IMG/VR virus record: IMGVR_UViG_3300010160_000037
Location: 1-64,000 of that record
DNA from: a virus
Length of the DNA: 64,000 bases
Strand: one strand, 5' to 3'
The notes under the pieces are model-generated. The model ran no database searches and had not been told where the DNA came from. It was given only the letters and a program-made list of their open reading frames with translations. The position numbers were made by a program, and so were the translations under genes. Within the stretch, counting starts at the first letter, position 1. Each line of letters begins with the position of its first letter. Positions 11,988 to 43,400 of the stretch are shown piece after piece.

Positions 11988-12416
11988 ATGGATTGGATTT
12001 ATAATGGTATGGTAGTTTTAGAACTACCAGAGGATTGTGTCGGTTTTGTTTACATCATTACTAACAATCTTACAGGCAGAAAATATATAGGCAAAAAATT
12101 AGCGAAGTTTGCAAAGACGACCTACAAAACTGTAAAGTTAAAGAACGGCACTAAGAAGAAAAAGAAAATACGTAGTAAAATTGACAGCGACTGGCAAGAA
12201 TATTACGGATCTAACTTAGAATTAAACACAGACGTATTAAAATTAGGCAAAGAAAATTTCACGCGAGAGATACTTCACTATTGTAAATCAAAAGCAGTAT
12301 GCTCTTACATCGAGGCCCTTGAACAATTCAACCGCAAAGTATTAGAATCACAAGATTACTATAACGGACAAATCTCAGTCCGTGTCCATGGCTCTCACAT
12401 AATCAACAAAATTTAG
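11988..12416 (+). CDS. SegE-like GIY-YIG endonuclease domain protein
   Basis: A 142-residue protein. GFVYIITNNLTGRKYIGKK (residues 19-37) is the variant GIY-YIG motif (VYI...YIG). It is followed by a very basic stretch (KNGTKKKKKIRSK) and SDWQEYYGSN, with a conserved-looking Glu in YIEALEQF and an Asn in YYNGQ. This matches the SegE-type GIY-YIG family, free-standing phage endonucleases related to intron homing enzymes. It would nick or cut DNA at specific sites. No separate DNA-binding module is obvious. It starts 1 nt after the oxygenase stop and is followed by an unusual structured non-coding region, which is suggestive for a mobile-type nuclease. Confidence 0.75.
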   Translation: MDWIYNGMVVLELPEDCVGFVYIITNNLTGRKYIGKKLAKFAKTTYKTVKLKNGTKKKKKIRSKIDSDWQEYYGSNLELNTDVLKLGKENFTREILHYCKSKAVCSYIEALEQFNRKVLESQDYYNGQISVRVHGSHIINKI

Positions 12417-12876: not shown

Positions 12877-12897
12877 TCCTTGCTGGAGAATGCAAAA

Positions 12898-13629
12898 ATG
12901 AAAATAACTGAATTAGTAATGGAAAGCCGTAAAATTGATGAAGCTCCTATGGGCATGCTCAATAAACTTGGCAATAAGGTAATGAGTAAATTTGGTAGCG
13001 ATGCGTCTACTGGAAAGCTAAAGTCAGGTGAAGTAGCTAATAAATTATACTCATCATTCAATCAATACCTAGGTCAATCTGGACAAGAACCAACATGGCC
13101 TGTAGTTAAAAATTGGTTACAATCGAACAAGTATCCTACCAGTCGTGCAGAGAAAATTGTCAAGGCCGCAGGAGCTGCCTCTAGGATTCCAAAAGGTCCT
13201 GGCATGCTACAGAGAACTGGTGCTAAGATCAAGCAAGGATACGATGCCGCTAAACAAGGTGTAGGCAACGCTGTTACTAATGTTAAAAATAGAATGGACC
13301 AGGCGGCGTCTGATGCGGCTGGTGGACTTCCTGGTATGCGTGAAGGAAGGATCAACGAAGCTAATTCTCCTCCGTTAGATAAAAAGACTCTAGAAAAAGT
13401 ATTCCTAACTGCGGCCCAAGAAGCGGCTCAGGTTGTTCAGCAGAAGAAGCAGAACGGTGGACAACAAAATCAACGTCAAGGTAATAACGGCCAACAAAGT
13501 CAAAACGGATTAAGTGTACAGCAGGGCGGTAAGAGTCAAGGTGGGGATGCTAAGTTAGCGCAACGTGTTGATAATCTCGAAGCTGAAGTTGCCGCACTAA
13601 AAGGTTCTAGCAATAAAAACGCGGCTTAA
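12898..13629 (+). CDS. putative virion/internal head protein with N-terminal capsid-targeting-like peptide
   Basis: A 243-residue protein. I place the start at ATG 12898, with GGAG 9 nt upstream, rather than at an in-frame TTG at 12880. Its N-terminus MKITELVMESRKIDE-A resembles the cleaved leader of T4 internal head proteins, and the sites IDE (13-15) and INE (152-154) fit the gp21 protease consensus (L/I)xE. The middle is basic and Ala/Gly-rich. The region 175-220 is Gln/Asn/Gly low-complexity, and the C-terminus LAQRVDNLEAEVAALKG is a short coiled coil. A late promoter supports a virion role. No family was recognised; the internal-protein idea is an inference. Its stop overlaps the end of the opposing minus-strand frame by 4 nt. 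Confidence 0.7.
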   Translation: MKITELVMESRKIDEAPMGMLNKLGNKVMSKFGSDASTGKLKSGEVANKLYSSFNQYLGQSGQEPTWPVVKNWLQSNKYPTSRAEKIVKAAGAASRIPKGPGMLQRTGAKIKQGYDAAKQGVGNAVTNVKNRMDQAASDAAGGLPGMREGRINEANSPPLDKKTLEKVFLTAAQEAAQVVQQKKQNGGQQNQRQGNNGQQSQNGLSVQQGGKSQGGDAKLAQRVDNLEAEVAALKGSSNKNAA

Positions 13630-13856
13630 AAGAAAGGCAAGCCGCTTTCTTTGGTAGTTTCTAAGTTACCCTTAATAATACTACTGATAATAACTCTGTC
13701 GTTAGGCTCTAGTAGATACAACTGTTCAATTGTAATTCCGCCTCTCATATACCAACACATTTGATATAAGTTGTTTTTTAAGGCTTCTACCTCACGATCC
13801 ATTCTGTTAACATAGTCAAGGATCTCTTCGTTAGTTAAAGATAGAAGCCTTACCCG
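13626..13856 (-). CDS. -1 frame extension of the gp26-type protein (tail assembly chaperone-like)
   Basis: On the minus strand the -1 frame is open from 13856 to a TAA at 13628-13626, giving 76 residues after a shift. They read SLTNEEILDYVNRM, DREVEALKNNLYQMCWYMRG and end in ETTKESGLPFF. Coding-like sequence begins well before the only ATG (13802-13800, 58 residues), and no ATG, GTG or TTG lies between that ATG and the slippery site. This argues that it is translated as an extension of the upstream gene. A frameshift product would be about 366 residues. Lambda G/GT-type chaperones use this arrangement next to the tape measure gene. The function is inferred from that arrangement. Independent initiation at 13802 remains possible, although no good SD is seen there. 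Confidence 0.75.
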   Translation of the reverse strand, partial: RVRLLSLTNEEILDYVNRMDREVEALKNNLYQMCWYMRGGITIEQLYLLEPNDRVIISSIIKGNLETTKESGLPFF

Positions 13857-13862
13857 AAAAAA
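13779..13862 (-). promoter_or_regulatory. candidate programmed -1 ribosomal frameshift signal
   Basis: On the minus strand the last codons of the gp26-type gene are AAT TTT TTC GGG TAA. The heptamer T-TTT-TTC (13862-13856) is a canonical slippery site in the correct frame. Three nt later begins a stem: TAAGGCTTCTATCTT (13852-13838) pairs with GAGGTAGAAGCCTTA (13793-13779). This is 15 bp, of which 13 are Watson-Crick and two G-U, and the outer 11 are perfect. The 44-nt loop contains the only ATG of the -1 frame. Confidence 0.75.
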
Positions 13863-14725
13863 TTTGATTCGTCAAATGTAAATGGAACTTCAATAAACTC
13901 TGGAGCACCTTTTTCTAGCATTTCAGGAGTGCTGGCAATTGACAGGGGTTTAAGTTTATTAGCAGAGTTTAATAATCCCAATCTGTCTTTAATCTTTTCA
14001 AAGATTGCACTATCGCATTTTTCAATAAACTCTTGAATAAACTCAGCTTCTTCAACTACTCCGGCTGTACTTTCAATTTTATAAATTGCCTTACCAACAA
14101 TAGAAATTGTCTTTTGACTTAGTTTATTAAACGCAGACTTGAATGCAGTGAGTTTATCTTCTTCTGATAAGTTTTCATCTCTAACAAGTGCTACTAATCG
14201 TTGTGTATCAAATTCGCTTATCTGTGCTTCTGCTTGCGATTTGTAATTTAGAGGTTTAATATAAACAACTAACTCAGGAGTTATTTCAAATCGATCGTCC
14301 CATTGAGCTCCGTTCTGTAAAGAATCTAAAACGTTGTGTAGATCAACTTCGTATTCTGAAGGCTCGTCCATAGTCGGGTGTGTTATGTTTAATGACATTT
14401 TATTACCGTAGGTAGCTAATCGAATAGCACATAGCATACAGTCTAGGTCAATCTGTGGGATTTCCCAAGCATTGACAATATTAGGCATACAGCTTTGTAT
14501 GACATCTACAAGGGCTTGCCCGTTCATTAGTGCATCGGGCGTTTTAAATGTTAACTCATCTTTAGCAGTCATTGAGAATACAGGATATTCTCCGTTTATG
14601 CTAACATTAAGAGATCCCTCTGGATAGTATTTTCCACTGCTAGGTAGCTTGATATAGATCTTAGGCTGGCGCAAGATGCTTAACAGTGGGTTAATTTTTA
14701 CTGATTGTACAGTTGTTTCTGACAT
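13850..14725 (-). CDS. 26: T4 gp26-type baseplate/tail assembly protein
   Basis: A 291-residue protein of the T4 gp26 family. The conserved N-terminal half is clear: LRQPKIYIKLPSSGKYYPEG (18-37), VFSMTAKDELTFKTPDALMN, then VIQSCMPNI and DLDCMLCAIRLATYG. T4 gp26 is 208 residues and is annotated as a baseplate hub assembly protein. The second half here is helical. It is transcribed leftward, away from the tape measure gene, from a late octamer at 14772-14765, and has the SD CGGAG before its ATG. It ends at a slippery sequence that leads into a -1 frame, suggesting two products, as with lambda-type tail chaperones. Family identity is firm; the chaperone role is an inference. Confidence 0.85.
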   Translation of the reverse strand: MSETTVQSVKINPLLSILRQPKIYIKLPSSGKYYPEGSLNVSINGEYPVFSMTAKDELTFKTPDALMNGQALVDVIQSCMPNIVNAWEIPQIDLDCMLCAIRLATYGNKMSLNITHPTMDEPSEYEVDLHNVLDSLQNGAQWDDRFEITPELVVYIKPLNYKSQAEAQISEFDTQRLVALVRDENLSEEDKLTAFKSAFNKLSQKTISIVGKAIYKIESTAGVVEEAEFIQEFIEKCDSAIFEKIKDRLGLLNSANKLKPLSIASTPEMLEKGAPEFIEVPFTFDESNFFG

Positions 14726-14799: not shown

Positions 14800-17229
14800 A
14801 TGGCCGGAAAAGAAACAGTCAAAGGTACATTTGGCAATGAACCAATAGAGTTAAACAATGCCGCGACGGAAACTACCTTATTCGCCCTGTTGAGACTTGC
14901 GCAGAAAGATAGTGCTGTCCTTGCAGAAATGGCCAAGAAGGCAGGTATCAGCAGTAAAAAAATTGAAGATGCTCTAGAAAAACAATCCGACGGTGGAGGT
15001 GGCAGTAAGGGAGGTGGCCTAGGATTTTTAGGTGGCGCCGCAAACCTAGCTGGCGGCTTCTTAATGGACATGGTCGGGGGTATCACAAAGACTATTGGCA
15101 ATCTAACCGCGTTTGGCGAATCGTTAATGGACGGAACTGCTCGAGCCAGTGATTTCTTTAAGGCATTCAAAGACTTACCCTTAGGGCTGGGGCTATTTGC
15201 ACAGCTACTGGGAGCCGCGCAAAAGTTCATGGAAAAGCAGATAGACACCTACAGGACTATAAGCCAAACAGGCGCTGGATTAACCAGCAGTCTTGGCGGA
15301 CTAAGAGTGCAGGCATTAGGTCTCGGTTTAAACATGGACGAGTTTGCCGCAATGTTTTCTAAAAATCAAGATGCATTGGCTCGATTAGGCGGTAGTGCAA
15401 GTGCAGGAGCAAAGAATTTAGTAGCAATTAATAACTCATTGATTAACAGTAAAATGGGCGGAACTTTAATGGGGCTAGGTTATAGCTTTAGTGAAATAAA
15501 TGGTCTAGTTGGAGACTATATTGCTACAACCGGCGACGGCCTTAAGGTAGGTAGAGATGTAACATCTGAGCAAAAACGACTTGCAAAAGCCGCAGGCGAG
15601 TATGGTAAAGAATTAGATTTCCTTTCAAGACTAACTGGTGAAAGCAGAGAAGCAATACAAAAGAAAATGCAAGCAGATGCCCAAGAAGCCAGTTGGAAAA
15701 TGTATCTAGCAGGTTTGCCAGAAGAACAACAAAGATTAGCTACACAAGCAGTTGAACGTGCAAGAATGATGGGCGGCAAAGGAGGAGTTGATGCAATCAA
15801 AGCGATGTTTATGGGTTTTGCAGGACCGTTTAGTCAAGAAGGTCAAACATTTATTTCAACAATGGCTGGGGGGACAAAATCATTACAAGACATGGTTGCC
15901 GCAGTTAAAAATAATAAAGATGCTACAAAAACAATTACTCAGTTAGATAATTTGTTTGCTAAGGGAATGGCTTCAAATATTAAAGATCTTGAAAAATTTA
16001 GAAGTAATATTATGGCTATGGGCCAAGGTAGTGAGGGAGGCGCAAAAGCACTTTTAGAAATTCAAGAAGCCGCTAACAATTACATTAGCCAAGGAATGAA
16101 AGAAGAAACTGCTATTAAAAAAGCGATTGTTGACGCTCGTAAAAAGCAAGAAACTGATGCCAAAGCCGCCGAAGCGCAGGCTAAAGTTGATCTTGCTATG
16201 AAACAGCTAGGTCAACGATTAGTAACAGCACTACTTCCTATAATAGAATCTCTAAATAAAATAGGACTACAACTTATTAAAAGATTTGAAGATTTAGTAA
16301 ATCATCACTTACCTGATATAAAAGACGCATTGAAAAAAGTAGCAGATTTTATTGAATACGCATTTAATGATCCTGAAGGAGCATGGAAGAAACTAAGTGG
16401 TTGGTTTAAAGGAATGTTAGCAAAAATGCTAGAAGCATTTAGTACAAGCTGGTTAGGTAGACAATTGTTTGGTGATGCGGCCGCAAGTTTAGGACGTCGA
16501 GCAAGGATTGAATCAATGCAAGGCATTGATTCCGTGCGTAGGCAAGAATTAATAGGTAAAGGAAACAACACTACAGACAAGGAAAAAGAAGAGTTAGCAG
16601 ACATAAACAAAACAATTAGAGAAGGGCGATTAGCTCTTGCGGAGGAAATACGCGAGAAGGCTAAGGGATTCTTAAACGGCGAAAAAATGTACGACGCTCA
16701 GATAGAAGCCATGGCAAAAAAATATGGAAAAACTCATGCAGAGATAATACAAGAAATAGGAAAAGCGAACAGCACTATGCAAAAGGAATTCCTAGATAAT
16801 AGCATCGAGATGGAGAAAGCGCAAAGACAAAAGCAGAAAGAAGCACTTGCACAGGCTAATCAAATTGAATTAGGTATTGGAGATTATGCGTCGATGCAAA
16901 GTATTAAAGAATTTAAAGTAAAAGAATTTGCGTCAGGTACAGCAGGCTCTGGAAAATTATTACAAGATTTTGGACGAGAAGAATTGGTAAAACTTCACGG
17001 TAAAGAAGCTGTGCTAACAGAAGAACAACTGACAAATTTAGCAAAAGGAATACAACAAGCATCAGCAGGTACAACAATTAAGGCAGAAATTGGACAGTCA
17101 GATTTAGTCGTAGAACATCTAATTACGTTAAATAGAGCTACAGCATTACAGAATAAGATACTCGGTACTATTGCCGAGAATCAGCGTACAATGATTAACC
17201 GGGCTACCGGAAACAGACTAATGGTATAA
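14800..17229 (+). CDS. tail tape measure protein
   Basis: An 809-residue, mostly helical protein. The N-terminal third has Gly/Ala-rich hydrophobic stretches (GGLGFLGGAANLAGGFLMDM near 70-90; LGLGLFAQLLGAA near 128-140). A long helical body and a second hydrophobic segment follow (LGQRLVTALLPIIESLNKIG near 470). The C-terminus carries the Gly- and His-containing tape-measure tail motif: FASGTAGSGKLLQDFGREEL, then VKLHGKEAVLTEEQ. It sets tail length and is ejected ahead of DNA. T4 gp29 is 590 residues, so a somewhat longer tail is possible if the scaling holds. The start ATG has AGGAA upstream. Next to the gp26-type gene, but on the opposite strand. Confidence 0.8.
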   Translation: MAGKETVKGTFGNEPIELNNAATETTLFALLRLAQKDSAVLAEMAKKAGISSKKIEDALEKQSDGGGGSKGGGLGFLGGAANLAGGFLMDMVGGITKTIGNLTAFGESLMDGTARASDFFKAFKDLPLGLGLFAQLLGAAQKFMEKQIDTYRTISQTGAGLTSSLGGLRVQALGLGLNMDEFAAMFSKNQDALARLGGSASAGAKNLVAINNSLINSKMGGTLMGLGYSFSEINGLVGDYIATTGDGLKVGRDVTSEQKRLAKAAGEYGKELDFLSRLTGESREAIQKKMQADAQEASWKMYLAGLPEEQQRLATQAVERARMMGGKGGVDAIKAMFMGFAGPFSQEGQTFISTMAGGTKSLQDMVAAVKNNKDATKTITQLDNLFAKGMASNIKDLEKFRSNIMAMGQGSEGGAKALLEIQEAANNYISQGMKEETAIKKAIVDARKKQETDAKAAEAQAKVDLAMKQLGQRLVTALLPIIESLNKIGLQLIKRFEDLVNHHLPDIKDALKKVADFIEYAFNDPEGAWKKLSGWFKGMLAKMLEAFSTSWLGRQLFGDAAASLGRRARIESMQGIDSVRRQELIGKGNNTTDKEKEELADINKTIREGRLALAEEIREKAKGFLNGEKMYDAQIEAMAKKYGKTHAEIIQEIGKANSTMQKEFLDNSIEMEKAQRQKQKEALAQANQIELGIGDYASMQSIKEFKVKEFASGTAGSGKLLQDFGREELVKLHGKEAVLTEEQLTNLAKGIQQASAGTTIKAEIGQSDLVVEHLITLNRATALQNKILGTIAENQRTMINRATGNRLMV

Positions 17230-27217: not shown

Positions 27218-30200
27218 ATGGCCGTAGGTCGAATTACAGGCCCGTTACTTGCAAGTAATTTGCTACGTGACGGTGTAAACTTAGCAGTTGAAACCAACTT
27301 GCTCTATCTTGATGTGACAACAGGTCGCATCGGTATTAAGACGAACTCCCCACAATACGATTTAGATGTAAATGGAACAGCCAATGTTGGCAGTCTAATT
27401 GTTCTAAACACATCTACGCTTGGTCTACTAACAATCACAAAAACCGCAAGTAGCGGAACTATTGGATCTACACTTGGTCCCATCCATATAAAGCCTGCCA
27501 TAGGCAACGAAATTAAATTAGATGCTGACACTACGGTAGACGGTGACTTACACGCTACTGGTAACATTACAGCAGATGGAAACATTGTCTTAGGTAATCA
27601 ACTCGGTGTTGACACACTAACAGTTGGTGCTGAATTTCTTTCAAGCCTAATACCAAAAACACCAAACACTTACAATGTTGGCTCTCAAACTAACAACTGG
27701 AAGAACGGTTACTTCCAACAAGTTCAAGCCGGCAATTTAAAAGCCTATGGTAGCACAATTACTAATCTATTGGCCAGCCAAGGTATTGATATAGCACCAA
27801 AAGGCGGCCCATTAAATGTGCGTGGCGAAATTCGTGTGTGGGGTCAAAATCCTCTAGGTACTGCGCCAGTAACATCAAACGTTTTATACGTTAACGAAGA
27901 TGGTAGCGATACCAACGACGGCGGCGCAATGGATCCAAGTCGTGCATGTCGTACTGTAAGTGGAGCAACTAAGAGTCCTTTATATAAAGAAGGAACAAGT
28001 ATTAAAGTTGCACCAGGCCTTTATAGAGAAAATAATCCTATCCTGATGAAACAATACACATCAGTAATTGGTTCAGACTTACGTACAACACTTATTGAAC
28101 CGATGAATAAGACCCAAGACTTATTCCATGTTCAGTCAGGTTGCTATGTTGCACAGCTAATGATGTACAACGGTCGCTCAGGCCGATTTCCAGGTGGACC
28201 TGGTTATGCTCCGGGTACTAACAGAGGTGCGTATGCTACAGCATTTCCTCCGCAGGTTAACGGAACAAAGATTGACCTGTTCCACTCACCGTACATTCAA
28301 AACTGTACCAACCAATCAGGTCCTTGGTTATATGATGGTACAATGTTTGTACCTAACCAAACTATTCAAATACCAGAAGCAGTTGGCACAGCAACATATC
28401 CTTCAAACACAACAACATTTACTGTTACATTAAGTACAGGATCTGTTTATGTTGGCCAATCAATTAATGGCGGCCCTCCTAGTCCCGGATTCCAAAATGC
28501 TCGTACATTACTATTGGCAAATAAAGCATTTATACAAGAACAAACGATCGCGTATGTTAATCAAACATACGGCGGACCATTCCAATACAATTCTACTAAG
28601 TGCGCCCGCGATACTGGATTGATTGTAGACGGGTTAGGTTTAGACTTAATCTATCAAGGCACAAGTCAGTCAGTATTTTCCGGTCTTCAATACTGGAGCC
28701 AAGGTTCGTACACTGGACAGATTGCCAGTGAAGTAACAACAACTACAAATGCATTTAATTACATAAGTGGTCTTGCACAGCAGATTGTTAGAAACATTGT
28801 AATTGCGGCACCATATCAAAATACACTAACGCAAGTAACTAATCTTCCAGCAGGTGCAGTTATTGATGCTACTCGTGTCGGATCATTGTTTACTACTGTA
28901 ACTAATATTATCACCTACGGACCTGCAGGAATTACTGACAAGATTATTCCTAATGGTACTACTATTACTTCTAACACAAGTACTGTAGCCGCTTATAATT
29001 TACTACAGGCAAATAAAAACTTCCTAAAATCAGAAACTATTGCATGGATCAACGTTTTTAGTCCTGGTAGTTTTGTCTACGACAAAGACAAATGTAAACG
29101 TGATGTAGGATATATCATAGATTGTATATCTTTTGACTTATTAAGAGGCGGAAATAGACAAGCTATTCAAGCTGGTACAGTTTATTACGGATATAGTAAC
29201 ACCACAACTATTCCTAATGAAATTGAACAAACTACTATGGCTTATCAGTACATGAAATCTGTAATAAGTGCAGTAGTTCAAAGTCAACAATTAGTTTCAT
29301 TTTATCAAAGCGAAGTAACGCAAGTACTAGATTCAGTCAATCCTGGATCAGCCGCAGCCGCCACAACTATCAGTTCTAATATTGATCTTATCACTCGATT
29401 AATTACAGTAGGACCTGCTGGCGCCCCTAGCCTAGTACCTATTAGCCTAACACAAACGTCTACTGCTGGGTTGTTAAATGCTTATGCTTTATTAAATGCA
29501 AATAAGAATTTTATTAAAGCAGAAGTTATTGCTTACACAAACAGCTTGCCTAATTTTGTTTATAATCAAGAAAAATGCAAAAGAGATGTTGGCATTATTT
29601 TAGAAAACGTTAGTTTTGATGCACTTGTAGGCGGCAATGCTAAAGCTATTGAATCTGGACTTGCTTATTTTAACGGAGTAAATTCTGTTATTGCTGGCCA
29701 AGAAACACAAAGCGTCGGAGCCATTAACTATGTTAAATCGTTAACTAACTCAATTATTACTAACATGCAGGCCCCTAATTTATTAGGATCTACTGCAACA
29801 CAGCAACAAGTTATTAACTATTCATTTCCGGGCGGCATTGTAGCACAAGATTCTTTAAACAATGCATACGACACGATCACAACAATTATTACAAATGGTC
29901 CAAGTAGTGCTCCAACAAGTTTCTTAGGTTCTGCACCTGATCCTCATTACATGAGCGCAGAAATTCTACTACAGGCCAACAGATCATTTATACAAGAAGA
30001 AGTTGTTACATACTTGAATCAACAATTCTTAACGTTTCCATTTAACACAGCCAAGTGCCAACGTGATGGTGGATTAATTGTTGATTCTATTGCACTAGAT
30101 TTATTGTTCCCAACTGCAACAGACAGTCAAAGTAATTTTGCTGGTTTACAATATTGGTCACAAAGTAGCTATACAGGATTAATTGCTTCTGAAATAACTA

Positions 30201-33200
30201 CTACAACTAATTCTATTACCTATCTAAATAGCTTGGCTCAAAAGATTATTTTAAATGATACATCGGGCCCTCGCTATCAGTCAGCATCTATACAAGACAC
30301 AACAGTTGCACCTAGTACTGCTGAAGTTGCATCTTCTATTGGTACAAACTTTGATCTAATTTTAGATATCCTAAACAACGGTACTGTTGGAATAACTGAT
30401 AAAATAATTCCAAGCGGATTAGCAACAAACGATCCTAGAGTAGTTCATGCATACACACAATTACAAAATAATAAATCTTATATACAAGACGAAGTAGTTG
30501 CGTATGTTGAGTCAACTAAGACCGCTGATTTTGTTTACGATCAAACTAAATGCCGACGTGATGTTGGATACATGATCGACTCTATTAGCTTTGATTGTCT
30601 GTATGGCGGCAACCGCCAAAGTATTATGGCAGGAGTTGATTACTACAGTCATAGTGCAGTCACATCTGTGCAAACACCAGCAGAGACTACAGCAACTATT
30701 GCCGCATATACTCATTTAAGTGATATTATTGTAGGAATTATTACAGCAACACCTATAGCACGTACTGCCAATAATTTAATTGATCAGGTAATAGATCTTC
30801 CGCCAGCAACCAGCGCAGAAGTAACTTCTGCTAGAGCTAAGATTGCTAAGATATCTAATATTATTACCAACGGACCAAGCGTGGCTTCCGCACTGACTCC
30901 GATTAGCCTGACTCCAAGTACCAATGAAAATATTCAACGTGCCTATGCATTGCTAGAAGCCAACAGAGATTTTATTGCAAATGAAATGGTGCAGTATGCA
31001 CAAAACACCTACAATGGTGGTGGCTTCCAATACAATCAAGCCAAGTGCTCGCGCGATACTGGGCTGTTAGTTGACGGATTTATAACTGACTTAGGTTGGT
31101 CTGCTAACGGCTATACCAATACTAGATTTGCAGGATTACAATATTGGAATCAGTCAGGTTACACAGGTCAAATTGTTAACGAATTAACTACAACTACTGC
31201 CGCAATTAATTACGTAAAAACAATGGCTAAAGAAGCCATAGTGAATACTGTTGGGACACGTTATCAAAGTACAATTACTCAACAAATTAATTTACCTTCT
31301 GCTACATTGTCTGAAGCCAGTACGATAGATACTGAATTTAAAATAATAACAGATATTTTAACTACTGGTACTGTTGGTATAACAGATAAAGTTGTATCAA
31401 ACGGATTAGCTATAACTTCAGCCAATGCACAAAACGCTTATAATATATTACAGGCGAACAAAGCATATTTCCAAGCTGAAGCTATTGCGTTTGTTGAAAC
31501 TACTAAGACACAAAGTTTTGTTTACAATCAAGATAAATGTTTTAGAGATACAGGATTAATCGTAGACACTATTTGTCAAGATTTAATGTTTGCAACTACA
31601 AGCAGTCAATCTACTTTTGCTGGACTACAGTATTGGGCGCAAACATCAACATCTATTCCAGGCGAAGTTACAACAACAACTAATGCTATTAATTACGTAT
31701 CTGACCTGGCCCAAAAAATTATAGTTGGAAACAAATCTGGTACTAGATACCAATCAGCAGTTGCTCAAACAACCAGCACAAGTCTAGCATACGGTACAGC
31801 AGTTGAACAGTCTACACTTTCTTCTGAGTTCAATCTTATTACCGATATTATTACCAACGGTGTTGTTAATCTTACAAACAGAATTGTACCTAATGGATAT
31901 GTATCTAGCACAGTTGCTACTACATTAAATGCCTATAATTTATTAGTAGCCAACTTAACCTATTTGCAAGCAGAAGCGGTTGCTTACGTAGAGTCAACAA
32001 AGACAGCTGGATTCACATACGACCAAACCAAATGCCGTAGAGACATTGGCTATATGGTAACCAGCGTAGCCTTTGACTTACTATGGGGCGGCAACAAACA
32101 AGCTATTCAAAGCGGAGCATATTATTATAATTACTCAGCAAGTACTTCTACTATTCCAACAGAGAAACCACAAACGCTTGCGGCATACAATTATTTAAAA
32201 ACCCTAGTTGGAAATATTGTTACTAACACAGCGATTACTCCTAGTAAAGGTAATACTGCAATTCAGTATACAAATGCAGAACCGGCTACTGTTGCTGAAG
32301 TTACAGCGTTGCAAGCATCAATTTCTACAATTACTAACATTATAACAAATGGTCCAAGTGTTGCGGCAACAAAACTTCCAATATCACTAACACCTAGCAC
32401 AAATATTGCAGTTGGAAATGCAGTAGACTTGCTACAAGCAAATAGACAATTTATACAACAAGAACTTGTTGCATGGATTAATGAGAACTACGGCGACTTT
32501 ACATACGACTTGGCCAAATGCAAACGCGATGTTGGCTATATGATCGATTCTGTTAGTTATGATCTGTTGTGGGGCGGAAATAGACAAGCCATCACCAGCG
32601 GTGTTTACTACTATTCATTCAGTGGTCCTTCAAGCATTCCTGGAGAAAATCAACAAACTCTAGCGGCTTACCAACGCATGAGCGAAATCCTTGGAGACAT
32701 TATTACTAATTCTCCAATACAGGTTAGTTCAGGCAATGTAACACCTCAACAATTTAATAACTCTCCATCAACTATTGAGACAGCATCTGCACTAAACGCC
32801 ATGGTTGCGTTACTATTAGATATAATAAACAACGGACCAACTGCCGCAGGTACAAAACAACCAATTAGCTTAGAACGCAATACAGATCAAAATATCGTTA
32901 ATGCTCAAACATTATTAACCTTGAACAGACAGTTTATTAGAGATGAAGTTATTGCGTATGTTAACAGTTCGTTCCCTAACTATCAAGGCAATAATGGTTT
33001 TAATTACGATCAATCAAAGTGCTATCGTGATACCGGATTAATTATTGATGCTATCAGCCAAGATTTATTAGTAGGCGGCAATAGAAAAACTATTGAAGCT
33101 GGAGTAAGCTACTGGACTGGTGGCCGCAATGTTGTTTACGATGAGCTTCCTCAATTTAATGCCGCATTAACTTATATTAAAGATTTGTCAAGACAGATTG

Positions 33201-36200
33201 TACAAAATCAAACAGTAACAGCATTGGGCAATGCTCCTCAAACTATCAACACATACTTTGGTGGCGGCATTTATGCTATTGACAGTATCAATCGATTAAT
33301 AGATACATTTACAACTATTGTTACTAAGGGTCCTGCATTTAGTCCAATTGGGTACGAAGGTGCTGGTACATTCTCTGCATTATCTCCTACATCAGCAGAC
33401 TACACACAAGTAGCATCTACAGTATTACAGGCTGATCAGGTAGGTGTAAACGAATATCAAATTACATTAAATGTTCCTACGCAGGGTCCTGGCATTAATC
33501 AAACAATATATTTTGGTCAAACATCAGTTTATCCTTTACAAGATAAAGATGTTCCAGATATATATTCCGATCGAAAAGTTGATCCATGGGGTTCTATTGG
33601 CGGAAGTCTAGTAGACGGTGGCGTAATTAGCGATCGTTCACCAATCCAGTCTTTTGTTTACGATGCGTTTACTCAGGTCAACCAAGGTGGTATTGGTATC
33701 CATATCACAAACAACGGCTATGCACAGCTGGTGTCTGTGTTTACAATTTTCTGCGGTACTTCTGTGCTTGTAGAGAACGGCGGTATTTGTTCTATTACTA
33801 ACTCGAACGCCAACTTTGGCGACTACTGTCTAGTATCTAAAGGCTACGGTAAGCGCAGTTTCTTTGGTGAGATTACTAATCCGGCAGTCCTGCCTTACTA
33901 TCCAAACGGTTTCTTTCCACAGAATCAACAAGTCGAAGTATACTGTCCAGATCCTGCTGACCGTCCGCACATTGGACAGGTTATGGAAGTTGAAGTTCCG
34001 GAGACATATCGAAATGCGCAAGGCTTGCCCGGTTATCTTTCTGCTATTGTTAATACCAGCACACTAACCGCAGGCAGTATCAGTATTGACGGTATTGACA
34101 CTACTGGTGTTGTTATTGGTCAAAGCATATATGCACGTGACCAATTTGGTAGCTACAATGATCTATTTGGAAATCGATACATAACTGAAGGTACAGTGGT
34201 TACAGACGTTAACTTCCTGTCAATTTCGCTAAGTAGTCCTATTAATGCAGGTGGTGGAGATGTTGCTAATGCTAATTTCTTTACCATGTATGTAACAGGA
34301 AACGCCTATTATACTATTAGAGGAAGCACATTAGCACCAGATCCTTTCACTCCAGGAACCAAATTAATTGGTGCCAGTAGAACCGAACAAGGAAACGATC
34401 AAACGATTGAAGAGATCCAAGCAATTACCTATCTAAGTAGTTTAACAAATAGTGTTGTAACTAACAAGTTGATCAATGCGTTCCAATCAACAATAACACA
34501 ATTTACAAATATTGCTCTAGCAACAGGCGGCCAGTCGACCGTGAGAATGGGCCAATTGTTTACAACATTAGAAACTATAATTAACAATGGTCCAAGTTCA
34601 GCACCTACGGTTGCTAGAACAGGAATCGTAGCACCAGGTGCAAGCGATTCATCTTCGTTGTTAAGGTCAAACAAATTATTCTTACAAACTGAAATTGTTA
34701 ATTATATCAATAGTCTTTATTTTGTCTATGATCATGCTACTTGTAAGCGTGATCTAGGATACATCCTAGATAGCTTTGCATATGATGTTGCTTTCCAATC
34801 TAATTATCAAGCTATTAAGAGTGGCCAGGCATATAACAGAAATGTTGCAGGTAGCAAATATGTTTTAGAAAATGAAAAAACACAAACTACAGATGCAATT
34901 AGCAGGCTAGGTGCTATCACCAACCAATTAGCTGGTGTTAGTACAGTGACTTCGGCTATTAGTGTTATTAACTTAGATGCTATCTACATTCAAAATATTA
35001 TCAACAACGGTGACGGCGCAGGCCCTGCATACTCTATGCCTGCTCCTGCAGGATTAGATGCAGGCATTGTTGGTGCTATTAGTTTAATCAATAACAATAT
35101 TCAATTTATTACAGAAGAATTAATTGGATGGATCAACTATACATATCCAGTATTCACATATGATGCAGTTAAATGTAAGAGAGATATGGGTTACATTTTA
35201 GACGCTGTACATTGGGATGTACTATTAGGTACAAATTATCGTGCTGTAAAGGCGGGCCAAGCATATTATCTTGGCAATGCCGGTAATGTATTAACCTATG
35301 AAAAATCTGCAACGATTGCGGCATTTAATTTTATTAAAACAAATGCATTGTTATTACCTGCGGTAACCGTAAGTACTGTAGCAACAACTACGTTGAATAC
35401 TGATATTGCAACAATCAATGACATATTACAAAATGGCGTAAGTGTATCTCCAACAGTAACCTACACATTACCTTCAAATATTGCTTCTGGGTTTGATAGT
35501 GCAAGTTTATTATTACAAAATAATATTGCATTTATTCAAGCAGAAGTAGAAGCTTATGTATATACAACTTATACAGCTGGCGGTTTTATATATGATCGTA
35601 CAAAATGTAAACGTGATGTAGGATACTTGATGCAAGCACTCATATACGATATTACGTATGGTGGAAACTCTATGAGTGTTGACGCGGCCTTACAATATTT
35701 TGATAATTCTAATAACAATGTCAGTACTATTCCAAACGAAGAAACACAGACTGTTGCGGCTATTAACTACATCAATACTATTTGCCAGCGCATTATAGTT
35801 AACTTGTCTCCGTTAGTATCATATCAGACAGTTGGCATTATTACTCAATATAAAAACAGTTCTTATATAAACGGGGCCAACGCAGGCTCTACCGTGGCAT
35901 TATTGATCACAGAAATGAGTAATATTGTAGGTAATGGTCCTGGATCAGCACCTATAATTACAACTCCAAGTATTACTTGGGTAAACGCGACGACCCGTGC
36001 GGCCGGAATAGCAATTAACGCAAATGCAAATTCAATCGCAACTCAAGCTATTACTTTCATTGGACAAAATTTTGATGTATTCACATACGATCAAACTGCT
36101 TGTCGTAGAGATATAGGCTATATATTGCAGGCCCTGATATATGATTTAACCTACGGTGGTAACTGGCAAACTGTTGACTCTGGAAGATTATACTGGAACG

Positions 36201-37054
36201 GAACAACGTCATTGATTCCAAATGAACAAAAACAAACAATTGGCGCATGGAATCGCATGTTGTATCTACTAGGTCAGATAATTCAAAATCAAAATCCCGC
36301 GAATAGTTACCAGGCGACATATAGTCAATTCACCAATGGCTCGATAACTACCGGTGTAAATGCTTTACCTGCGTTAACTAACTCGATTGGAATATTAACC
36401 AGCATCATTCAAAATGGTCTCAGCTACGCTCCTGCTATTGTATATCCAAACATAACGCAAGCTTCTTCTGTGTTGCAGGGAATATACAACATTATCCAAA
36501 CACAAAAGACTTCTCTAGTTAATCAGGTAATTACATACATTGATGGAAAGTATAACGGATTTGAATACAATCAAGCACTATGTAAACGTGACGTTGGGTA
36601 TATCATTGATGCTGTAGCGGCTGACTTAGTAAGTGGCGGCAATTACAATACTGTATTAGCTGGTCAAAGTTACTATGCCCGTGCCGGAACACATCATTAT
36701 GTAGAATTAGAAGACAACATTACTGATGCAGGACTATTTTCAGATAAGGCACTGGTGAATTTCTATCAACGTTCATACATGTCAGCTTCTGGCTACTTGT
36801 TTGAGTATGTAGGTGCAGGTTCTAACTACGGTGCATTACCACAAATTGGTCGTGCAGATCCAATACAAGAAAGAGAAACTATACAGTTGAATAACGGTAA
36901 GGTATTCTTTACATCAACAGACCAAAACGGTGACTTCCGTATTGGCCCAGGATTGGTAATTAGCCAGGCAACTGGTGTGTTATCAGGACGTACATTTACT
37001 AAGTCATTGTTTGCTAATTTGACACCGTTCATCTTGGCAATTGAAGGAATATAA
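27218..37054 (+). CDS. giant fibre protein with beta-helix scaffold and 15 Cys-Arg-Asp repeat domains
   Basis: A 3278-residue structural protein. The N-terminus RITGPLLASNLLRDGVNLAV, then LYLDVTTGRIGIKTNSPQYD, is a typical aquatic T4-like fibre attachment start. Residues about 225-320 are a pectate-lyase-like beta-helix opening (VLYVNEDGSDTNDGG, IKVAPGLYRENNPI). Ten copies of a ~160-residue domain follow (about 430-2030), then beta-helix continuation (VFTIFCGTSVLVENGGICSI, GDYCLVSKGYG, about 2130-2210), five more copies (about 2470-3140) and a final NGKVFFTSTDQNGDFRIG segment. Each repeat contains the pattern (Y/F)(D/N)xxxCxRDxGYxxDxxxxDLxxGGN. The repeats look largely helical, unusual for a fibre shaft. 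No catalytic motif or C-terminal chaperone is seen. Recognition of host polysaccharide or use as a long spacer are possible roles. Confidence 0.85.
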   Translation: MAVGRITGPLLASNLLRDGVNLAVETNLLYLDVTTGRIGIKTNSPQYDLDVNGTANVGSLIVLNTSTLGLLTITKTASSGTIGSTLGPIHIKPAIGNEIKLDADTTVDGDLHATGNITADGNIVLGNQLGVDTLTVGAEFLSSLIPKTPNTYNVGSQTNNWKNGYFQQVQAGNLKAYGSTITNLLASQGIDIAPKGGPLNVRGEIRVWGQNPLGTAPVTSNVLYVNEDGSDTNDGGAMDPSRACRTVSGATKSPLYKEGTSIKVAPGLYRENNPILMKQYTSVIGSDLRTTLIEPMNKTQDLFHVQSGCYVAQLMMYNGRSGRFPGGPGYAPGTNRGAYATAFPPQVNGTKIDLFHSPYIQNCTNQSGPWLYDGTMFVPNQTIQIPEAVGTATYPSNTTTFTVTLSTGSVYVGQSINGGPPSPGFQNARTLLLANKAFIQEQTIAYVNQTYGGPFQYNSTKCARDTGLIVDGLGLDLIYQGTSQSVFSGLQYWSQGSYTGQIASEVTTTTNAFNYISGLAQQIVRNIVIAAPYQNTLTQVTNLPAGAVIDATRVGSLFTTVTNIITYGPAGITDKIIPNGTTITSNTSTVAAYNLLQANKNFLKSETIAWINVFSPGSFVYDKDKCKRDVGYIIDCISFDLLRGGNRQAIQAGTVYYGYSNTTTIPNEIEQTTMAYQYMKSVISAVVQSQQLVSFYQSEVTQVLDSVNPGSAAAATTISSNIDLITRLITVGPAGAPSLVPISLTQTSTAGLLNAYALLNANKNFIKAEVIAYTNSLPNFVYNQEKCKRDVGIILENVSFDALVGGNAKAIESGLAYFNGVNSVIAGQETQSVGAINYVKSLTNSIITNMQAPNLLGSTATQQQVINYSFPGGIVAQDSLNNAYDTITTIITNGPSSAPTSFLGSAPDPHYMSAEILLQANRSFIQEEVVTYLNQQFLTFPFNTAKCQRDGGLIVDSIALDLLFPTATDSQSNFAGLQYWSQSSYTGLIASEITTTTNSITYLNSLAQKIILNDTSGPRYQSASIQDTTVAPSTAEVASSIGTNFDLILDILNNGTVGITDKIIPSGLATNDPRVVHAYTQLQNNKSYIQDEVVAYVESTKTADFVYDQTKCRRDVGYMIDSISFDCLYGGNRQSIMAGVDYYSHSAVTSVQTPAETTATIAAYTHLSDIIVGIITATPIARTANNLIDQVIDLPPATSAEVTSARAKIAKISNIITNGPSVASALTPISLTPSTNENIQRAYALLEANRDFIANEMVQYAQNTYNGGGFQYNQAKCSRDTGLLVDGFITDLGWSANGYTNTRFAGLQYWNQSGYTGQIVNELTTTTAAINYVKTMAKEAIVNTVGTRYQSTITQQINLPSATLSEASTIDTEFKIITDILTTGTVGITDKVVSNGLAITSANAQNAYNILQANKAYFQAEAIAFVETTKTQSFVYNQDKCFRDTGLIVDTICQDLMFATTSSQSTFAGLQYWAQTSTSIPGEVTTTTNAINYVSDLAQKIIVGNKSGTRYQSAVAQTTSTSLAYGTAVEQSTLSSEFNLITDIITNGVVNLTNRIVPNGYVSSTVATTLNAYNLLVANLTYLQAEAVAYVESTKTAGFTYDQTKCRRDIGYMVTSVAFDLLWGGNKQAIQSGAYYYNYSASTSTIPTEKPQTLAAYNYLKTLVGNIVTNTAITPSKGNTAIQYTNAEPATVAEVTALQASISTITNIITNGPSVAATKLPISLTPSTNIAVGNAVDLLQANRQFIQQELVAWINENYGDFTYDLAKCKRDVGYMIDSVSYDLLWGGNRQAITSGVYYYSFSGPSSIPGENQQTLAAYQRMSEILGDIITNSPIQVSSGNVTPQQFNNSPSTIETASALNAMVALLLDIINNGPTAAGTKQPISLERNTDQNIVNAQTLLTLNRQFIRDEVIAYVNSSFPNYQGNNGFNYDQSKCYRDTGLIIDAISQDLLVGGNRKTIEAGVSYWTGGRNVVYDELPQFNAALTYIKDLSRQIVQNQTVTALGNAPQTINTYFGGGIYAIDSINRLIDTFTTIVTKGPAFSPIGYEGAGTFSALSPTSADYTQVASTVLQADQVGVNEYQITLNVPTQGPGINQTIYFGQTSVYPLQDKDVPDIYSDRKVDPWGSIGGSLVDGGVISDRSPIQSFVYDAFTQVNQGGIGIHITNNGYAQLVSVFTIFCGTSVLVENGGICSITNSNANFGDYCLVSKGYGKRSFFGEITNPAVLPYYPNGFFPQNQQVEVYCPDPADRPHIGQVMEVEVPETYRNAQGLPGYLSAIVNTSTLTAGSISIDGIDTTGVVIGQSIYARDQFGSYNDLFGNRYITEGTVVTDVNFLSISLSSPINAGGGDVANANFFTMYVTGNAYYTIRGSTLAPDPFTPGTKLIGASRTEQGNDQTIEEIQAITYLSSLTNSVVTNKLINAFQSTITQFTNIALATGGQSTVRMGQLFTTLETIINNGPSSAPTVARTGIVAPGASDSSSLLRSNKLFLQTEIVNYINSLYFVYDHATCKRDLGYILDSFAYDVAFQSNYQAIKSGQAYNRNVAGSKYVLENEKTQTTDAISRLGAITNQLAGVSTVTSAISVINLDAIYIQNIINNGDGAGPAYSMPAPAGLDAGIVGAISLINNNIQFITEELIGWINYTYPVFTYDAVKCKRDMGYILDAVHWDVLLGTNYRAVKAGQAYYLGNAGNVLTYEKSATIAAFNFIKTNALLLPAVTVSTVATTTLNTDIATINDILQNGVSVSPTVTYTLPSNIASGFDSASLLLQNNIAFIQAEVEAYVYTTYTAGGFIYDRTKCKRDVGYLMQALIYDITYGGNSMSVDAALQYFDNSNNNVSTIPNEETQTVAAINYINTICQRIIVNLSPLVSYQTVGIITQYKNSSYINGANAGSTVALLITEMSNIVGNGPGSAPIITTPSITWVNATTRAAGIAINANANSIATQAITFIGQNFDVFTYDQTACRRDIGYILQALIYDLTYGGNWQTVDSGRLYWNGTTSLIPNEQKQTIGAWNRMLYLLGQIIQNQNPANSYQATYSQFTNGSITTGVNALPALTNSIGILTSIIQNGLSYAPAIVYPNITQASSVLQGIYNIIQTQKTSLVNQVITYIDGKYNGFEYNQALCKRDVGYIIDAVAADLVSGGNYNTVLAGQSYYARAGTHHYVELEDNITDAGLFSDKALVNFYQRSYMSASGYLFEYVGAGSNYGALPQIGRADPIQERETIQLNNGKVFFTSTDQNGDFRIGPGLVISQATGVLSGRTFTKSLFANLTPFILAIEGI
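28497..33310 (+). repeat. block of ten ~160-codon Cys-Arg-Asp repeats
   Basis: The CxRDxG core recurs near protein residues 460, 624, 786, 945, 1110, 1275, 1439, 1604, 1766 and 1933. Two subtypes occur. One has CKRDVGY and GGNRQAI followed by a Tyr-Tyr-Tyr segment. The other has CxRDTGL and FAGLQYWSQSxYTG. They alternate irregularly, suggesting duplication followed by shuffling. Confidence 0.85.
34640..36660 (+). repeat. block of five further Cys-Arg-Asp repeats
   Basis: CxRDxGY cores near residues 2507, 2651, 2796, 2960 and 3120, with SNYQAIKSGQAY, TNYRAVKAGQAYY, GGNSMSVDAALQYF, GGNWQTVDSGRLYW and GGNYNTVLAGQSYY. These five are more divergent and are separated from the first ten by beta-helix-like sequence. 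Confidence 0.8.
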
Positions 37055-37465: not shown

Positions 37466-40400
37466 ATGCCATCATTACTAAGCGGTCGTGTAAAATTAAT
37501 TAGTCCAGGCACTAATTACACGGTAATCAACAACTATATCAGTCTAGGCCAAGCACAGGCTGGTTTGGGTGCCTCACCTACGACAAACACTGGTTACACC
37601 TTAGTAATTGGACCTAATGGTCAGGCAACATATACAAACACACTTGGTCAAATTGCGTTTAGTACAGGTACTATTACTTCACAAGCACCAACTGGTGACC
37701 TAACTCTTAATCCAAGCGGCACAGGTACGATTACACTTAACGGTCCTGTTAACATTCCTCAAGGTATTCAAGGTAGTGGATTTAAAACAGAAGCCAAACG
37801 TGCTACTACTGGAAATATTTTACTTAACGAATCAACATCAACAGTAACATATGACGGGTATCATGTAGATTACCTAGATCGTATCTTGGTCAGAGCACAA
37901 ACTGATGCAAGAGATAATGGTATCTATTATGTTTATACATCAACATTTGCTACAAATGTAGTTACAACACAGATAAACTACACACAAAATAGTTTCACAG
38001 CTACAACCTACAACATCGGTGATGCAAATAGTCTAGTTGCAGGTAGCACACTTACCAGTTTGTTTGTTGGCAACAACACGACCATTGTTCAAATACTAGA
38101 CAGCTCAACGTTCTTGATGAGTAATCCTGGATTAGGAACCATCACTGGTGCAGTTTCTACAGCATCAAGTAAAGGCTTAACTAACTCCGTAGTGCTATCA
38201 AGAAGTACTGACGCAGTTAACACCAACGGTTTAAAACATATTGTTGTTCCTATCGTAGGCGGAACCTATGAAGGTAGATTATTCTTCACATCATTCCTGG
38301 CAACACAGGTAGTTGGGGTTGACCCAATTAATTGGTATGAGATCGTTGATAGTACATCTTACCAAACTGTCTATAGCAAATATTTAGAAAATGTAACAGT
38401 TGGTCAATATCTCCCAAATGCCGGTCAATTTACTTTATTCACGGCTACTAACACAGCAACATTTGCCAACCCAACTGACTCAACAGCAACTACAAACGGT
38501 GCTGTGGTAGTAACTGGCGGCGTTGGAATCCAGAAGAGCTTATTTGTCGGAGGTGCAACAAACATACAAGGTAGTTTGAATGTAAACAGTCAGGCAAATA
38601 TCAGTCCAGCTGATGCAACAGTATTCATCCAGCCGACTGGACTAGGAACAGTTACGATTAATCCATCTACCAAAGGTACCATTAACAACATGGACGTTGG
38701 TAACAGTATTCCTAAGAATGGTACATTTGTTAATCTTACTGCAAACAATCAATTATTAGTAACTTCAACCTCAGAATCTACAAGTACAACAACAGGTGCT
38801 GTTCAAGTTGCGGGCGGTGTTGGCATTGGCGGCAACCTAGTTCTAGGTGGTCAGTTAATATTCAGCGGACTTGCGGACGAGTTTGTTGTTAATAATTTCC
38901 GTGCAAAAGGACAAGTACTGTTTACTACAAGTACAAATTCAACGTCAACAACAACAGGTGGACTTGTTGTAAGTGGTGGAGTCGGCATCGGACAAGATCT
39001 AGTATTAGGTGGCAAACTAATATTCCAAGGGTCGGGTACAAACTTATCTTTAAGTACGCTATCAGTTACATCTAGTTCACAGTCAACCAGCACTACTACC
39101 GGTGCGTTAACTGTAGTCGGTGGAGTTGGTGTAGGTGGAAACTTAACCCTAGGCGGTCAACTAATATTCAGTGGCGCAGCCGGCGATTTAAAAGTAGCAA
39201 CGTTAGCAGTTACATCAACTACCAATTCAACCAGCACAACTACAGGAGCATTTACTGTTACTGGCGGTGTCGGTATTGGACAAGATTTGGTATTAGGCGG
39301 AAGTCTAATATTCACAAACGCCAGCGGTACTATCAGAGCAGAACAGATCCACATCCTTGGAACACAAACTTCAGTAAGTACAGAAACAGGTGCTCTAGTT
39401 GTTGACGGTGGCGTAGGTGTTGCTAAAGATGTTGTAGTTGGTGGCAACTTGGACCTAGGTGGTCAGCTAACATTTAACAAATCATTCACCGCAACATTCG
39501 TTGCATTGCATATCACCAGCACAGCAAGTGATGTAGCTACATTTAGCAATAATGCAATTTATGTTGAAGGCGGCCAGGCTGTTAAGAAAGACCTAAGTGT
39601 ATATGGCAACACAGTCCTATACGGTAATCTAACTGTAGCTGGTACACAAACAATCGTTGATTCGCAGAACACTTATATTATTGATCCAGTGATTGACATT
39701 GGTACCGGTATTGATAACACTCCGTTGTTAGTTAATGACGGATACGATCGTGGTATGTTGTTACATTACAGCACCGGTAACGGCCCTCAATTTGACAATC
39801 ATGCATTTGTTGGGCGTGATGTAACTACCGGATTTTTAACTTATAAAGTTAACGTTTATCCAGGTGGCTACGAAACTTTCCCAGCGCAATTTGCGAATAC
39901 TGGTAGTTTTGGTACAGCACAATTTGGTGGCTTACGACTAAGCGGCGGAGCGGTTGCACTGAGCACAAATACAGGTGACCTGCAAGTACTAGGTGGCATT
40001 GGCGTTACTGGCGGAAGCTATTTTGGCGGTACATTAACATTAGGTAGTCCGTTAGCAAATACAACGCAAACTATAAATCATGCATTAGTAGTATCTAGTG
40101 GCGGTATTGGGGTAGCGGGCGCCAGCTTTTTTGCAGGACAAGTTAAGTTTTCAAATGCTCAAGCATCAACAGATCCATCATCTGGAGCAGTGGTTCTTTC
40201 GGGTGGCCTGGGAGTAGGTGGCTCAATCTTTACAGCCGGACCAATGCGCATAAGAAACAGCACAGAGTCTGTAAGTACTGGCACAGGCGCTCTAGTTGTT
40301 TCAGGTGGTGCAGGATTTAACGGTGACATCTATGCACACAACATCTATACAGATGCAGGCCTAACACAGTTAGCAAACTTCAACGGTGGACGTATTAGCG

Positions 40401-43400
40401 ATCCGTTGTTGATTGATAATACTACAAGTGCATACAGCACAATGACAGGTGCGCTACAAGTACGGGGCGGCGTTGGTATTAGTGGTGCATTATGGGTTGG
40501 CGGTACTGCAAACGTCAGCAACTTGTTTGTAAATGGTGCGGCAGTATTAACTACATCAAGTCCAACAGGATTCAACGGCGGTACAATTATATATCCATTG
40601 CAAATTGGATACAGTACTTCCACACTAAACACAGCTGGCCTAACAGTCAACTCAGACGTTAACTCTGTATCAACAGATAGTGGAGCAATCGTAACTATTG
40701 GCGGCGTGGGAATTGCACAAGATCTGCATGTTGGTGGAACAATTTATCGCGAAGGCGATATTACAACTGCCAACTGGGGACAGACCGGTATCGCAGTTAA
40801 CTTAGCCAGTGCTGTCTATACAGATAATCAAGCATCTGGTTCGTTTACGAATACAAACAACGTTTATGTCGGCCAGCCAATTATTAATTCAAGATACGGC
40901 TCTGCATACGCACAAGCAAACACAATCTATATTGAAGATGCTCCTAAAGTCAAGACAACCGCAACTACAAGCATTGCAGATTCATACGCAGTATGGGTTA
41001 ACAACGGCAAAGTACACATTAATAGCACAGCGTCTAGCGCAACAAACTATCTAAACAATGCTCTAAGTGTTGCAGGTGGTATTGGTATTGCAGGAGCAAT
41101 TCAAGCAAGCGGCCCATTAAATGCTCCACAGGTATTTGACAACGGAAATCGTGTTGTTACATTTGTTGACATTATTGACGGTCCAGGTATTTCATCAAGT
41201 CCTGATAAATCAGGTGGCTCAACCGCTACTATCACAATCAACAATACTGGCGTTCTAACAGCAAATGCTGGTACTGGTATTGTCGTTGATAGAGCAACTG
41301 GTGATGTCACAATCAGCAACGTTGGCGTAACCAAGATTGAAACAGGTCCTGGCATTAGTGCTTCGACCAGCACTGGTACTGTGTCACTTGTAAACACAGG
41401 TGTCCTAAGTCTAACAGCAGGAACTGACACAGCAGTATCATTTACAACTGGCAACATTACAGTTTACAGCACAGCTACATTGGCTTCTGTAACCAGCAGA
41501 GGTGCAACAACAACCAGCACTATCCGTTTAACTAATACACAAACTGGTCTAGTTGTTGGCGGCGATGCTATATTCTCTGGAACTGTTGCAGTTACTGGAA
41601 CATTAAACATTGGTGGTGCAAGTATCAGTGGTGGCAACGCTACATTTACATCATTACAAGCAGGCGATACACTGATTACTGGACAACTAACAGTATCAGG
41701 AACATCGACATTTATCAACAGCCAACAATTAACAGTTGTTGATCCTGTTATTGATGTAGGAACAAATATTAATAACGTACCGTTATTAGTAAATGACGGA
41801 TTTGATAGAGGTGTGTTAATACATTATAACACTACTCTTTCAAATAACATTGCATATGATGCTCACGCATTCTTAGGACGTGATAACGTATCAGGCAAGT
41901 TAACTTATAGAACCAACATTTGGCCAGGCGGTGTAACCGATGTTCCAAATCCTTTTAATTCAACAGGCACACTGGGTTATGCGGTATTTGCTGGATTGAA
42001 CTTAGAAGGCGGAATTGCTTCTACAAGTCCAACATCAGGTGACCTACAGGTCGTAGGTGGTATTGGTGTTGGCGGCGCAAGTTATATCGCCGGTCAAGCA
42101 AGATTTGGTAGCCAACTAAATGCTAATGCTACAGCAACTGGTGCAGTTATTGTTGACGGTGGCCAGTCTATTACTAAAGATCTGTACATTGGCGGAAACG
42201 TTATTGTACGTGGATATGTTCTAACTACAGCAACAGCATATAACGGTGGCGAAGTATTCAATCCTGTTATTGTAACAAATGGTACAAGTGCTACAAGCAC
42301 ACTAACCGGTGCATTGATTGTACATGACGGTGGCGCTGGTATTGGCGGAGATGTTTGGATTGGTGGCGCCCTTAATGCTAAATCAGTCCTAGTTGACGGG
42401 CGAGCAATTACAACTGACATCCATTTAGTTACTGGTCCGGGCTTAGTCGGTGATGTAACAACATCATCAGGCGGTGTAACCATCACAATGACCAACACAG
42501 GTATCTTGAACTTAGATGCAGGTCCTGGTATTAGTCTTGCAAACACCGGTACCAGTGGCATAACAACTATCACCAACACTGGTGTAGTGTCGATAGCAAT
42601 TAACGGTCTAGGCCTAAAAGCCAGTACATCAACCGGTTCTGTTGTACTAACAAACATTGGTGTAACCGCGGCAACAGCAGGGGCGGGTATAAGTGTAAAT
42701 CAAACTACTGGTTCAATCATTATTACCAACGTTGGTGTACAAAGTATTGGTACTATCGGCGGCGGCATTACAGTTACTACCAGTACTGGATCTGTGTTCT
42801 TATTAAACTCAGGTGTAACGAGTCTTACAGCAGGCACAGATACTAACGTAACTGCAATATCAGGTGATATTACAATTTGGGATATCAGTACACTACAATC
42901 GGTAACTGGTCGTGGTAATATTACAACTCGAGATATAATAATTGATAGTACAACACCAACTTCTAATACAGCCAGCGGAGCATTGGCAGTTACTGGTGGT
43001 GTTGCAGTTGGACAAAACTTGTATGCAGGCGGCCAGATTTATGCACTTGGCGGCTACTTGGGATTAAATCCTCCTGCGATCTTTGTTAATAATACAAACG
43101 TTACTGTAACTGATAATGTAAATGAGCACAAGGTTTCTGTTGCGATCAACGGAACTACTACAACTACATTTGATATCGTTGGGGAACACATACTTTCTAC
43201 AACAAATTCAACAAGCACTACTACTGGTGCATTGATAGTTGATGGCGGAATTGGCCTTGCTAAGAATATATATGTTGGTGGAAGTGCTACAGTTGCAAAT
43301 ACTCTAACGGTACTAAGCACATCAACAATGGGTTCTATATTGCCTCTAGCAGGTGGATATTATAATCTAGGAAGTCCAACACAGCGTTGGGGTACGTTAT

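Follow-up and report, generated by a model that had tools for sequence, protein, structure and literature searches.

Phage lambda has two tail chaperones, gpG and gpGT; both bind its tape measure protein, and the tube protein is bound through the T part (PMC5009743). Long-tailed phages widely share the G-T frameshift, with the exception of T4 (Atkins et al. 2016, PMC5009743). The T4 proteins gp26 and gp51 are both classed as chaperones of hub assembly. Assembly of T4 requires gp51, which the particle itself lacks; gp26 belongs to the hub of the virion according to some, including some genetic work (PMC3004832). For T4-like phages, Vladimirov, Gautam and Davidson (2022, Virology 566:9-15) are cited in the PRFect paper (PMC10885494) for the presence of two TAC genes, a short and a long one, and in a 2025 paper (PMC12846349) for -1 signals of the poly-T type in TAC-N genes. 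As represented by these two citing papers, that work overtakes the statement, made in an earlier note on the DNA analysed here, that its author knew of no described frameshift in T4-type gp26 proteins. The phage Adele (Vandenendeviridae/Andersonviridae) has a poly-T -1 frameshift in its TAC-N gene, assigned by comparison, and is similar in this respect to the locus described below. It differs in its GTTTTT motif, its lineage and the position of its extension, which is directly upstream of the tape measure gene (PMC12846349).

The stretch of DNA analysed here (the window, 64,000 nucleotides) comes from a virus contig of 76,146 bases (IMGVR_UViG_3300010160_000037). The window contains T4-type portal and gp23 major capsid genes and is therefore from a T4-like phage. 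The gene of interest is on the minus strand (13850..14725), and its 291-residue product, the predicted short form (TAC-N / gpG-like), matches Pfam PF12322 (T4_baseplate, the gp26/gp51 family) with 34.9 bits against a cut-off of 24.5 (E 1.7e-8). It also matches phrog_150 (baseplate hub, E 5.9e-13). By tblastn, the gene is found in 90 named-phage records, mostly jumbo T4-like phages, including 121Q, PBECO4, RaK2, PA5oct, CBB, GAP32, Munch, Atu_ph07, Phosso and Vibrio 2.275. The AlphaFold model of this main part, like that of the extension described below, was built from an alignment of IMG/VR rows only. It has a pLDDT of 89.0, and its top named Foldseek matches are T4-like baseplate hub assembly proteins. 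A profile search of the PDB with the main part returned nothing credible. The whole predicted fusion has no significant hhalign match to gp51, and the family link of the main part thus stands on PF12322.

Other genes in the window include a SegE-like GIY-YIG endonuclease (11988-12416; PF19835, E 2e-31) near gp46/gp47-type genes. A 3278-residue ORF (27218-37054) has a whole-protein match to the Pfam family Phycobilisome (E 3.9e-10), which is odd for a phage protein here; no single stretch passes alone, and the best is 1890-2014. Two further giant ORFs are without a Pfam match (37466-44359, 2297 residues; 44432-58027, 4531 residues). Next comes an 838-residue ORF that has a Peptidase_S74 chaperone domain at its C-terminus.

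The minus-strand ORF 14725-13850 (291 codons) ends in GAA TCA AAT TTT TTC GGG TAA. The slippery heptamer T_TTT_TTC occupies 13862-13856 on the minus strand, with TTT at 13861-13859 and TTC at 13858-13856. It is one sense codon ahead of the zero-frame stop TAA (13850..13852), which lies at the foot of the downstream stem. The heptamer has the X_XXY_YYZ form of a -1 frameshift site in the zero frame, and the frame is the one given in the earlier note.

Two scans of IMG/VR gave 160 loci. The set used for a strict check consists of 127 distinct relatives with the gene end, made up of IMG/VR loci and six named jumbo phages, and all 127 contain T_TTT_TTC in the zero frame. Homologues without the heptamer, which the earlier note had named as evidence against a frameshift, are thus absent from this set, and the conserved heptamer and -1 extension that it proposed to look for are found in every locus. 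PA5oct, 121Q and Serratia BF share the same heptamer. In the gapless alignment A1, TTTTTTCG is invariant across 82 non-redundant sequences. The position of the zero-frame stop is more variable: it is 9 to 39 nt past the start of the TTT codon in the relatives, up to 30 nt further on than in the window, and the heptamer is unmoved. The heptamer is therefore retained whatever the position of the stop. TTT accounts for 80% of the Phe codons in these genes, and 58% of the codons used for the residue before the heptamer have T as their last letter. From this codon use the heptamer is expected in about 9% of cases per locus, and it is observed in 102 of 102 non-redundant loci. Because the loci are related, multiplying these per-locus figures would not give a meaningful probability, but the contrast remains clear. 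Measured against codon use, conservation of the heptamer is far beyond chance.

After a -1 slip, the reading continues as F-F-R-V-R-L-L-S-L-T... for 78 residues, counting both Phe, and ends at a stop at 13628-13626. This -1 extension (13626..13862, minus strand) is the predicted C-terminal part of the long form (TAC-NC / gpGT-like). Its translation agrees with the 76 open codons past the heptamer counted earlier. The stop overlaps that of a convergent ORF (12880-13629, plus strand, 249 residues) in a shared TTAA at 13626-13629. The extension is in the -1 frame in every distinct locus having both parts, with a length of 73-79 residues (127 loci). It has 85 tblastn relatives in IMG/VR, and among the matches listed most align from residue 1. 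Eight residues are invariant in alignment A5 (F1, F2, R3, R5, W37, R40, G41 and N66). The motif FFRxRLL is conserved and begins at the slip site, which bears out the earlier description of this frame as coding-like from its beginning. As judged from these alignments, conservation of the extension as a coding sequence begins at the slip site. It has no match in Pfam or NCBIfam, no credible match in PHROGs, no credible PDB relative and no match among viral folds. Its AlphaFold model is all-helical with a pLDDT of 90.6.

The slip site is a homopolymer, and one relative, L239, reads both parts in a single frame. Both observations are compatible with a sequencing or assembly indel in the T run of a continuous gene, or with a decayed gene. 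Against this, 127 distinct loci and also complete genomes show the same frame relation while the position of the stop varies, and the in-frame join of L239 uses different codons rather than a one-base change. This explanation has almost negligible probability, and a sequencing indel is refuted by conservation over the 127 distinct loci.

A second alternative treats the -1 frame as a small gene in its own right, which ribosomes would translate by reinitiating or by using a start codon of its own at the overlap. Separate small ORFs are annotated here in 121Q, BF, Phosso and Vibrio 2.275, and the first nearby start codon is ATG in 28 and TTG in 61 of 126 loci. Other evidence counts against such a gene. 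ATG, GTG and TTG are all absent near the junction in 37 of 126 complete loci. In the window, the extension has no start codon before codon 21 (13802-13800), the in-frame ATG that the earlier note had correctly placed, as the sole one, in the loop of the stem. In PA5oct, no gene is annotated in the second frame and no start codon exists. The conserved FFRxR residues are at or ahead of the annotated small-ORF starts, the heptamer is kept, and its invariance exceeds what codon use explains. A separate second-frame gene with its own start, the other case that the earlier note set against a frameshift, is thus seen in appearance only, since the heptamer and FFRxRLL are kept and 37 of 126 loci are without a nearby start. 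A separate gene is very improbable and was rejected: many relatives have no start codon, and coding is conserved from the slip site. A programmed -1 frameshift at the end of the gene, predicted from comparison of these loci, is close to certain.

Downstream of the heptamer, the minus strand contains a predicted stimulatory stem, identified by folding and compensatory changes, with its 5' arm at 13838..13852 and its 3' arm at 13779..13793. RNA folding recovers the 15-bp stem of the earlier note as the minimum-energy structure of the window sequence, at -25.7 kcal/mol. Dinucleotide shuffles give -13.55 +/- 2.58 (z = -4.7), and none of 200 shuffles is as good. The start at 3 nt past the heptamer, also given in that note, does not hold for the family-conserved part of the stem (GGCTTTTG), which begins at 6 nt; of the three outermost pairs in the window, two are poorly conserved. 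A spacing of 6 nt is usual for -1 stimulators. The conserved core from 6 nt, together with its covariation, agrees with a stimulatory structure about 5-9 nt downstream.

Across 82 sequences, 85% of cells in the 15-pair stem are paired, compared with 27-56% in slid registers. The covariation score of the stem is 0.264, compared with 0.145 +/- 0.006 for shuffles and 0.05-0.09 for slides. Double-sided (compensatory) changes are present in 9 of the 15 pairs; for example, they occur in 13 sequences at pair 21-74, in 36 at pair 22-73 and in 26 at pair 23-72. RNAalifold of the whole alignment gives the same helix, but with little net energy. A marine subgroup and PA5oct have a different fold at this position, with a hairpin in another register.

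The gene next to this locus is divergent from it, on the plus strand (14800..17229, 809 aa). The earlier note had identified this neighbour as the tape measure gene. Its divergent placement is confirmed, as in all 141 loci a relative of the neighbour lies next to gp26 in divergent orientation. Its identity as a tape measure protein is probable, as inferred from position and variable length (complete relatives are 565-963 aa), with no profile match: searches of Pfam, PHROGs, NCBIfam and T4 gp29 gave none, and the PDB hits resemble helical-bundle noise. In PA5oct, the positional counterpart of the neighbour is a virion protein by ESI-MS/MS, according to the PA5oct annotation.

The site, the frame and the stem are present in the window and conserved in its relatives. 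The arrangement is similar to that of lambda gpG/gpGT in having a -1 frameshift close to where the short frame ends, a long form with a small extra domain, and a position beside a probable tape measure gene. It is different in having a T_TTT_TTC site and a long conserved downstream stem; the lambda slippery site is G_GGA_AAG. The window gene is also divergent from its neighbour, whereas the lambda gene is upstream; the two systems are compared here by their layout. With these qualifications the earlier comparison to a tail-chaperone fusion holds up, and a short and a long form with a common N-terminal part are predicted. The gene is in all likelihood the TAC gene of a T4-like phage, in which stem-aided -1 slippage on U_UUU_UUC would give the long form.

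We infer that ribosomes slip here, how often they do so, and that the products act as chaperones. The majority of ribosomes would terminate at the TAA and produce the 291-residue short form. A minority would slip -1 on U_UUU_UUC, aided by the stem 3-6 nt downstream, and produce a long form of roughly 366 residues that gains a helical domain at its C-terminus. If the products act as lambda gpG/gpGT do, the tape measure protein would be coated by many short forms, and a few long forms would recruit tube subunits and start tube assembly.

Alternatively, the frameshift is real and its products are structural proteins of the baseplate hub, present in a controlled ratio, rather than chaperones of the lambda type. 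In favour of this, T4 gp26 carries the annotation baseplate hub protein, and PF12322 is named for the baseplate. The genetic work that puts T4 gp26 in the virion hub counts against a chaperone, since one of the lambda type would not sit there. The counterpart of the long form, T4 gp51, is essential for assembly and absent from the particle, which argues for a chaperone. So do the place of the window gene next to a gene for a long protein of variable length, which is also the layout of lambda-type TAC loci, and the published TAC assignment for T4-like phages, as cited in PMC10885494 and PMC12846349. Structural hub proteins are an unlikely identity for the two products. The tail-chaperone reading is probably right, and it is not new in kind.

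The T4 proteins belong to the same family, PF12322. T4 contains two PF12322 genes, and no poly-T heptamer is present at the end of its gp26 gene. Both gp26 and gp51 score above the PF12322 cut-off, with a BLASTP E of 2e-6 between them, and their family profiles match by hhalign with an E of 1.9e-20, as paralogues. A single PF12322 gene is found in each of P-SSM2, S-PM2, HTVC008M, Cr30, phiM12, PAU, Vibrio 2.275 and PA5oct. In the first five of these (sampled cyanophages, a pelagiphage, Cr30 and phiM12), as in the window, the gene has T_TTT_TTC or T_TTT_TTT near its stop, followed by a -1 extension. These five differ from the window in the length of the extension (about 60-67 aa), which is clearly gp51-like in the cyanophage group, and in their hairpin, which is shorter than the stem of the window and close to the stop. 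In PAU, no site of the T_TTT_TT(C/T) type was seen near the stop.

Among distinct P-SSM2-like (cyanophage-like) loci, 69 of 70 contain TTTTTTC, with the stop 9 nt past the start of the TTT codon. The cyanophage -1 extension is homologous to the C-terminus of gp51 (E 2e-10). The extension of the window clade aligns with the gp51 C-terminus in the right place, but the match is weak (E 0.0017 with gp51, 0.00066 with a combined profile). The paralogy of gp26 and gp51, together with the match of the cyanophage extension to the gp51 C-terminus, points to T4 gp26 as the counterpart of the short form and T4 gp51 as that of the long form. T4 thus appears, from these sequence relationships, to encode its short chaperone in gene 26 and its long one in the paralogous gene 51. 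This is different from the window, as the two T4 genes are divergent and without the poly-T heptamer.

Gene order also varies. In the Klebsiella phage KP15 (Slopekvirus; locus L169, 1501-2795), genes 51, 26 and 25 are in tandem on one strand, and genes 51 and 26 of CfP1 are likewise in tandem on one strand; T4 genes 51 and 26 are divergent. L239 (IMGVR_UViG_3300049043_000112, 236 kb) contains, around 1480, a cyanophage-like gp26 gene without the heptamer. In this gene SFWLGM replaces SFFRISM and both parts are in one frame; the search of the contig gave only a single PF12322 gene. L239 is a possible case of independent loss of the frameshift.

The result is useful for annotation, well supported and only moderately surprising. 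In the annotations of public genomes, among them PA5oct, 121Q, Atu_ph07 and Phosso, the C-terminal part of the long form is a separate hypothetical protein, a truncated ORF or absent. The comparison suggests that the sampled T4 relatives outside the Straboviridae keep the frameshift, and that gp26 and gp51 are its two forms unlinked into two genes. A wider proposal, to which we give somewhat less than an even chance, is that a single gene with the frameshift represents the general, and probably the ancestral, chaperone state of the T4 superfamily (jumbo, freshwater, cyanophage and alpha-proteobacterial phages), with a previously undescribed long covarying stem in the jumbo/freshwater clade, and that it was lost in T4-type phages by duplication into 26 and 51. 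T4 is the cited exception to the conserved tail-chaperone frameshift (PMC5009743), and its gp26 and gp51 are puzzling hub assembly proteins. The comparison raises the question of whether the short-to-long ratio in T4 is the same as the one that frameshifting would fix in its relatives.
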